DNA from: Prochlorococcus sp. AG-409-L18
Lineage (GTDB): Bacteria > Cyanobacteriota > Cyanobacteriia > PCC-6307 > Cyanobiaceae
Assembly: GCA_003215535.1 (NCBI GenBank)
Contig: QCKG01000009.1
Location: forward strand, 1-64,000
Length of the DNA stretch: 64,000 bases
Direction: 5' to 3'
The translations under genes and the position numbers were made by a program. A model generated the notes under the pieces. The model worked only from the letters and a program-made list of their open reading frames with translations. It had not been told where the DNA came from and searched no databases. The number at the start of each line of letters is the position of its first letter. Position 1 is the first letter of the stretch. Below are positions 39,112 through 58,250 of this stretch, one piece after another.

Positions 39112-39816
39112 TCAACTCTGAGGAAGTTTTTGAAGATCCTCCATCAGACCCATAACCACAAGAACATGATCCTCTTCAAGCACAAAGGTCGCTGGAGGAT
39201 TGACTGTCAGACGCTTAGTAGGTCCAGCCGCCAAAACATTCACTAAAAAATTCTTTCGAAGATTCAGGTCCCGTAAAGAACATCCAACGAAAATCTCAGG
39301 AACTTTTATCTCATCAATTCCTGTTTGATCATCCAATTCCAAACGTTCTATCAAATTGGGACGAACTAATTCCAAACCCAATCGTTCACCTTGCATTCTT
39401 GAAGGGAAAACCACTCTATCTGCGCCAACCCTAGTCAACATTTTTTCATGTAGGTCACTAGTAGCTCTTGCAATCACTTGGCGGACTCGACTGCCCTCAC
39501 TATCTTTTGCAATCAAAGTAGTGGTGATACTCGCTTCAATAGGCTCACTAATTCCAACAACTACTGTTCCCATTTCCAGGACACCTGCTTCTCTCATTGA
39601 TTCCTCATCAGTCGAATCAACCACTCTGGCCTCAATGGAAGGCTCTAGCTGGCGCAATTCCTCTATAGCCTTTTCAGACGAATCAACTGCCAAAACATCT
39701 GCACCATTTTTCAATAGTTCTCGGCATACCGCACTTCCAAAACGGCCTATGCCAACTACAGCAAAACCGAGTTCCTCTCTCGAATGATTTTGCGACCAGT
39801 GCCACCACTCCCTCAT
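39112..39816 (-). CDS. ktrA: potassium transport NAD-binding subunit (KtrA/TrkA family)
   Basis: Regulatory RCK subunit for a KtrB/TrkH channel. The Rossmann motif 'GFAVVGIGRFGSAVCREL' lies near residue 15, and the TrkA_C domain covers the last ~80 residues ('VGCSLRDLNLRKNFLVNVLA'). 234 residues from the ATG at 39816; a start at 39837 adds 7. It lies just downstream of ktrB, matching the KtrAB order. Confidence 0.88.
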   Translation of the reverse strand: MREWWHWSQNHSREELGFAVVGIGRFGSAVCRELLKNGADVLAVDSSEKAIEELRQLEPSIEARVVDSTDEESMREAGVLEMGTVVVGISEPIEASITTTLIAKDSEGSRVRQVIARATSDLHEKMLTRVGADRVVFPSRMQGERLGLELVRPNLIERLELDDQTGIDEIKVPEIFVGCSLRDLNLRKNFLVNVLAAGPTKRLTVNPPATFVLEEDHVLVVMGLMEDLQKLPQS

Positions 39817-39840
39817 GGCTGCTTCTCGATAAAGCAAACT

Positions 39841-41245
39841 TTAGACATAAAGATCCTCACGGGGATAGCCAATCCGATTCTGATGAAGCTGACGGCCTTT
39901 ATTCACCGCCTCCCATATTGCACTCAGTAATAAAAGGATGCCAAGTCGACCAACAAACATTCCTACTATCAAGACCAATTGTCCAAAATGTCCTAATTGG
40001 CTAGTAACGCCAACATCAAAACCGACTGTTGCGAAAGCTGAAACACAAGTGAAAAGCATTTCCAAGAAAGAAAAAGGCTGCTCCCCCCCCCAAATTGCTC
40101 GTCATACTGAGCAATAAAGCCATAATTAAAACAAATAACAAAGAACCTACGGTAATTCCTACAGCCTTAAGAACGACCTTGTCAGAGATCTGCCGATTGC
40201 GAATAACTACATCATCTTGACCCCTCAAAGTAGACCTTGTGGCTGCCATAAGAGCTGCAACTGTTGTGGTTTTAATCCCACCGCCTGTACCACCGGGACT
40301 GGCTCCAATGAACATCAACGTCATAAGTAAAAGAAGGCCAGAATCAGAAATATTCTCCGGAGAAAGTGGCATATTCGTAAAGCCTGCAGTCCTAGCACTT
40401 ACTGATTCAAACAAGGCGCTCATTAAACGTTCTGTCCACTCGATCCCAGAAAAGAACCCCCCATGTCCAACCGACTCTGTAATTAATAATCCAATGGTGC
40501 CAACCGCAATCAAAAGAAATGATGTTCGTAAAACCAAGCGAGTGTGAAGGCTAAGATTACGTCGACGAAGACTGTAACGATTAGTCCAAAGGTCACTCGT
40601 GACTCTCCACCCCAAGCCACCAAGAACTATCAACAGAATCATCACGATATTCACTACCCAATTCGTTCGATAGTCCTGCATGCTGTTAGACCACAGCCCA
40701 AAGCCTGCATTGTTGTAAGCAGAGATGCTGTGGAACAACGAAGTCCAAACTCTGTCACCCTGATTTGCAATATCGTCAAACCCAAAAAAATAAAGAGTCA
40801 CAGCACCTATCACGATTAAAACAGTTGCAGTAAGTGCAATGCCTCTAAAGGTTCTTCCAACACCCCCAACACCAAATTCATCAAGCGTCTTGCCCCGATC
40901 AAGACGACAACGCAATTCTGTCCCACGCACAACGAAGCCTTGTAAAAAAGTGGTTATGGCCATAAGTCCTAACCCTCCAACTAAAAGCATCATTGCTAAA
41001 ACAAATTGCCCAAATTTCGTCAGGTCCTCGCCGATGTCAATAATCGTCAATCCAGTAACAGTGACAGCAGATGTAGAGGTAAAGAGAGCCTCCCACAAGC
41101 CAACATTAGAACTAGAACAAATAGGAGCAGCAAGAACAAGCGTACCAACAAGAATTACAAGCAAGCCAGTGACAACAGTGAACTGAGGCACTGTCATACG
41201 ACGGTACCAAGACTGTTTGCGATGTATGGCTTGAGTAAATAGCAC
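39841..41245 (-). CDS. ktrB: K+ uptake channel subunit (KtrB/TrkH family), frameshifted
   Basis: Membrane pore of a Na+-dependent K+ uptake system. Four half-pore loops are expected: 'SAVTVTGLT', 'AYNNAGFG' and 'ESVSARTAGF' lie in the first reading frame (GTG 41245 down to about 40092), but the fourth, 'CVSAFATVGFDVG', and the C-terminus are in a second frame (from about 40091 to the stop at 39841). The break is in a run of nine G (minus strand; 40083-40091). With one G fewer the two parts join as a full-length KtrB of ~467 residues. As given, the first frame would end soon after, at 40016, and lose the last filter loop. Partner ktrA follows 3 bases after the stop. Confidence 0.85.
40083..40091 (-). 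repeat. nine-base homopolymer tract at the ktrB frameshift
   Basis: C9 on the plus strand, G9 on the coding strand, at the point where the ktrB frame changes. Such runs are prone to slippage in vivo and to length errors in sequencing. Confidence 0.9.
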
Positions 41246-57461: not shown

Positions 57462-58250
57462 GTGATAAAACAAGACTCCGATCTGCTTCTAGAAATTTCT
57501 GATCTTCACGCCCGTGTTGAAGATCAACCCATTCTCAAAGGCGTAAATCTCACAATTCGAGCTGGAGAAATCCATGCAGTTATGGGGAGAAATGGTAGCG
57601 GTAAAAGTACCCTTTCAAAAGTGATTGCAGGTCACCCTGCCTACACAATCACCTCAGGAACAGTTCGATTTGAAGGGAAAGATCTTTTATCAATGGAACC
57701 AGAAGAAAGAGCACGGTCAGGGGTTTTTCTTGGCTTTCAATATCCAGTCGAAATCCCTGGGGTCAGCAACCTTGAGTTTCTTCGAGTTGCCACAAATAGT
57801 CGCAGAGTCGAGATCGGAGAAGAAGAGCTTGACACATTTGAATTTGAGGACCTAGTTAAAGAGCGGCTACACATGGTTCAAATGAATCCAGCCTTTTTAG
57901 ATCGCAGCGTTAATGAAGGTTTTTCTGGTGGTGAAAAAAAGCGTAATGAAATTCTCCAGATGGCTCTCCTAGAACCAACAGTTTCCATACTCGATGAAAC
58001 AGACTCCGGGTTAGATATCGATGCTCTTAGAGTTGTCGCCAATGGCGTAAAGAAGCTTGCAAAAGCAAATACCGCAACCGTATTAATAACCCATTACCAA
58101 AGATTACTCAATGAGGTGACTCCTGATTTTGTACACGTAATGGATGCAGGACGAATTTTGCGAACTGGTAATAAAGAACTAGCTATTGAATTAGAACAAA
58201 CTGGATACGATTGGGTTGATAAAGCGTCAAAAAAAAAGGTGGAGAACTAA
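57462..58250 (+). CDS. sufC: Fe-S cluster assembly ATPase SufC
   Basis: An ABC-type ATPase that drives the SufBD scaffold. Walker A 'GRNGSGKST' at 42-50, '[19 protein letters not shown]' signature plus Walker B '[15 protein letters not shown]', the SufC-typical Glu/Asp changes. 262 residues. It follows sufB by 61 bases and is 2 bases before sufD. Confidence 0.95.

Follow-up and report, generated by a model that had tools for sequence, protein, structure and literature searches.

A gene for a membrane protein with a mononucleotide G run inside it has the classical make-up of a contingency locus. Slippage on homonucleotide runs, those of G and C included, can also bypass a frameshift and yield a functional protein (PMC3812077; PMC5009743). 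For the published workflow behind Prochlorococcus single-cell genomes of the kind considered here, benchmarks gave an average of 3.0 indels per 100 kb (PMC6122165); in benchmarks, indels were fewest in cultured Prochlorococcus marinus (PMC5519541).

In the window analyzed here, a stretch of 64,000 nucleotides from Prochlorococcus sp. AG-409-L18, the reading frame of the potassium channel gene ktrB breaks at a run of nine G residues. We consider it probable that this break is a +1 G slip, made while an intact gene was amplified, sequenced or assembled.

The ktrB locus and its reading frames

The gene is split into two overlapping open frames (Table 1). The initial annotation had described the gene as broken in a nine-base G tract, with one protein restored on removal of one G, and this description proved to be exact. 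Both the tract and the shift are directly visible in the sequence. Instead of a single open reading frame of ~470 residues, which is absent, there is a first frame of 409 residues, the last ~22 of which lie past the G run and are out-of-frame sequence. In profile searches this first frame matched PF02386 (TrkH) at 8e-50, covering profile positions 40–421 of 502, and TIGR00933 at 2e-72. The piece behind the G run (39841–40065) matched PF02386 at 3e-7 in profile positions 437–484. The positions of the motifs bear out the earlier assignment of three selectivity loops to the first frame and of the fourth loop plus the C-terminus to the second. The TrkH/KtrB profile, all four pore loops including their selectivity glycine and a KtrA partner nearby are present.

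Table 1. Features of the ktrB–ktrA region (positions in the window).
Feature	Positions	Strand	Remarks
C9 on the plus strand, G9 on the coding strand	40083-40091	gene on -	frame shifts +1 here
ktrB first frame (TrkH-family K+ channel subunit)	40016-41245	-	409 aa; gene start 41245
ktrB second open frame, C-terminus and loop 4, beginning at the G run and ending at the stop	39841-40101	-	
Selectivity loop 1, VTVTG	41051-41065	-	first frame
Selectivity loop 2, YNNAGF	40700-40717	-	first frame
Selectivity loop 3, ARTAGF	40379-40396	-	first frame
Selectivity loop 4, FATVGF	40018-40035	-	second frame
ktrA-type regulatory subunit, intact, directly downstream of ktrB	39112-39837	-	PF02254 5e-26 (TrkA_N), PF02080 3e-5 (TrkA_C)

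The length of the run is unremarkable by itself; the remarkable part is the break in the frame. From shuffled sequences 0.85 G8 matches per window are expected and two were seen, a number that is reached or exceeded in 22 of 100 shuffles. Genome-wide there are ~34 G runs of at least eight residues, 12 of them at least nine residues long.

We inspected every G or C run of at least eight residues in the AG-409-L18 genome for the gene that contains it. An ABC sugar-type permease is shifted by +1 at a G10 run (C1:157363-157372; L070:2364-2373), with the C-terminus encoded by the continuing frame. An alpha/beta hydrolase is shifted by +1 at a G9 run (C13:22575-22583; L089:2076-2084), with the remainder of the domain in the continuing frame. 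Including ktrB, these were the only three genes noticed to be broken at G runs. The frame is kept across runs of nine and ten in a GluQ-type synthetase, a thioredoxin-reductase-like gene and gltB. Generally bad sequence in the window was rejected as a cause, since shift calls at A/T runs are about as low there as elsewhere; an A9 run at 58229 sits at a gene boundary.

KtrB in relatives and constraint behind the break

KtrB was found in 135 of the 151 family genomes searched, and none of the 134 matching genomes other than AG-409-L18 showed a comparable break. Except for a few fragments at the ends of contigs, their open frames comprise ~458 residues or more (mostly 458–495). Identity to the nearest relative is 84% before the break and 84% behind it. 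The ratio dN/dS amounts to ~0.06–0.07 on both sides, at a dS near saturation, and the second frame, encoding the KtrB C-terminus, is 82–89% identical to relatives with a dN/dS of ~0.07. Equal identity and equal constraint on both sides imply that the break is either recent or not real. An old pseudogene was rejected, as the downstream part shows no decay.

A harmless loss, covered by a backup KtrB or by another K+ uptake gene, was likewise rejected: the genome, which is 90% complete, contains one TrkH gene, and neither a second one nor KdpA or Kup was found.

In the closest relatives (76–84% identity) the site of the G9 run holds five Gs at most, in GG- or GE-type codons, and the surrounding loop varies freely. 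No switch tract is therefore kept in these relatives. This bears on one of the possibilities raised in the initial annotation, a phase-variable switch of K+ uptake, in which reversible changes in the length of the run within a population would turn KtrB, and hence K+ uptake, on and off. A G run within a membrane-protein gene is what such a switch would look like, but besides the short and variable site in relatives, the long coding G runs across the family lie in housekeeping genes and not in surface or variable genes, and it is hard to see what would be gained by turning off what seems to be the sole K+ uptake gene. A literature search on phase variation in Prochlorococcus, judged by the titles listed, gave nothing pointing to such a locus. 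A K+ switch would have been a surprise, and we regard it as scarcely probable at all.

Long G/C runs in draft and finished genomes

We compared G/C runs of at least nine residues in a non-exhaustive sample from 13 single-contig and ~20 multi-contig relatives, grouped by contig number as finished and draft genomes, respectively. Several of the drafts are named as Prochlorococcus single-cell genomes. The coding frame on either side of each run was called by a hexamer model. The background of this classifier is ~2% shift calls at A/T runs and ~2–6% at G/C runs of five, mostly expected at gene boundaries.

The drafts contained 43 clear coding runs of at least nine residues, of which 20 were shifted (18 shifts and 2 probable ones) and 23 intact. 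In the finished genomes only 2 of 26 such runs were shifted, with 24 runs of 9–11 residues intact. The difference is significant (Fisher p = 0.001) and persists if AG-409-L18 is left out (16/37 vs 2/26, p = 0.002), with the qualification that lineage and culture history also set the two groups apart. The fraction of shifted runs increased with length, from 7/25 at nine residues to 10/17 at ten and 3/4 at eleven or more, and the direction was +1 in 17 of the 20 draft cases.

The shifted draft genes include infB, prk, dapB, purH, secD, priA, chlD, menA, icd, ndhD and ndhB-type genes. In prk, dapB, secD, icd and two ndh genes, scans of the two halves hit neighboring parts of a single model. Phosphoribulokinase and IF-2 are both vital to an oxygenic autotroph. 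With such indispensable genes among those shifted, living cells cannot really have carried most of the draft shifts.

Shifts in indispensable genes would also be explained if they were tolerated. RNA polymerase or the ribosome would then slip on the G run, a process with a precedent in the documented bypass of frameshifts on homonucleotide runs, and make enough full-length KtrB for the frameshift in the DNA to be neutral or even regulatory. Such recoding needs no amplification-specific cause and hence does not predict the difference between draft and finished genomes, the latter of which keep the frame in nearly all runs of the same length. Neither the run nor its context is conserved at the ktrB site. 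For ktrB we consider recoding very improbable. We give even less credence to the broader idea that essential genes of wild picocyanobacteria remain functional despite +1 shifts at long G runs, with transcriptional or translational slippage being frequent enough to restore the full-length protein and run length serving as a family-wide expression dial.

The two exceptions among the finished genomes are infB of relative G030, shifted at a C9 run in the N-terminal linker (L109:1496-1504), and rsmI of relative G003, the frame of which changes at a C10 run near the C-terminus (L102:1517-1526). In the case of infB, either the finished genome contains an error or a downstream start is used. The open frame of MutS in G003 comprises just 609 residues, as compared to ~920–1000 in most relatives. 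The longest run seen was a C17 run in G013 (C10; L203:1523), where the coding signal stays in one frame across the run.

The two finished relatives with a shift indicate that such changes may be real or tolerated. For ktrB, the corresponding explanation is a very recent, real frameshift in one cell or clone: replication slippage would have lengthened the run to nine Gs, KtrB would be cut before the fourth pore loop and KtrAB uptake abolished. Long G runs are prone to slippage in vivo, the break is entirely clean and no further lesion accompanies it, and as few as three genes broken at G runs in AG-409-L18 would be compatible with independent mutations. Mutants of this kind would be purged. Against this explanation, ktrB is the only K+ uptake gene found among the families tested. 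The lack of a comparable break in all other family genomes with a match and the excess of shifts in drafts, indispensable genes included, also speak against a real mutation and for an artefact. Loss of mismatch repair was rejected as a cause on the basis of MutS, which is intact in AG-409-L18 (952 aa) and gives no hint of a mutator. Overall, we judge a true mutation to be unlikely, albeit the second choice.

Origin of the ninth G and comparison with known systems

Based on the excess of shifts in drafts, their occurrence in indispensable genes and their rarity in finished genomes, a slip is the most likely explanation and not a biological switch. Among the three possibilities left side by side by the initial annotation (mutation, switch, sequencing error), error is therefore favored, mutation comes second and the switch finds no support.

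We propose the following course of events. The ktrB gene of the cell would be intact, with a G run one base shorter, and KtrB itself would be an ordinary channel subunit of the KtrAB K+ uptake system. The ninth G could have been added by polymerase slippage, either in whole-genome amplification or in library PCR; alternatively, it may stem from base calling or assembly. The added base would then have been fixed in the draft sequence. The assembly of AG-409-L18 is probably that of an amplified single cell, judging from its fragmentation, its completeness and its relatives. At the benchmark rate of indels, a genome of this size would contain about 50 of them.

As a biological feature, the ktrB break is most likely not real. 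It serves rather as a warning: among clear coding G/C runs with nine or more residues in these picocyanobacterial drafts, roughly one in two is frameshifted, and claims of pseudogenes or phase variation at such runs therefore need support from reads.

Compared with described systems, the locus shares with the KtrB of cyanobacterial KtrAB the TrkH profile, the four pore loops and the gene order ktrB–ktrA, and intact KtrB proteins of Prochlorococcus relatives are 76–84% identical to it. It differs in its frame, which shifts by +1 at G9 between loops 3 and 4. With phase-variable contingency loci containing G/C tracts it has in common a mononucleotide G run in a coding region; in contrast to these, the run is not conserved, the gene is a housekeeping gene and a single allele was seen, in one genome of the genus. 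As judged from the assembled sequence, the ktrB break, with a presumed laboratory step behind it, resembles the homopolymer indels of amplified single-cell and draft assemblies: in both, a long G run has one base too many, and such indels become commoner with run length, occur mostly in multi-contig drafts and affect indispensable genes.
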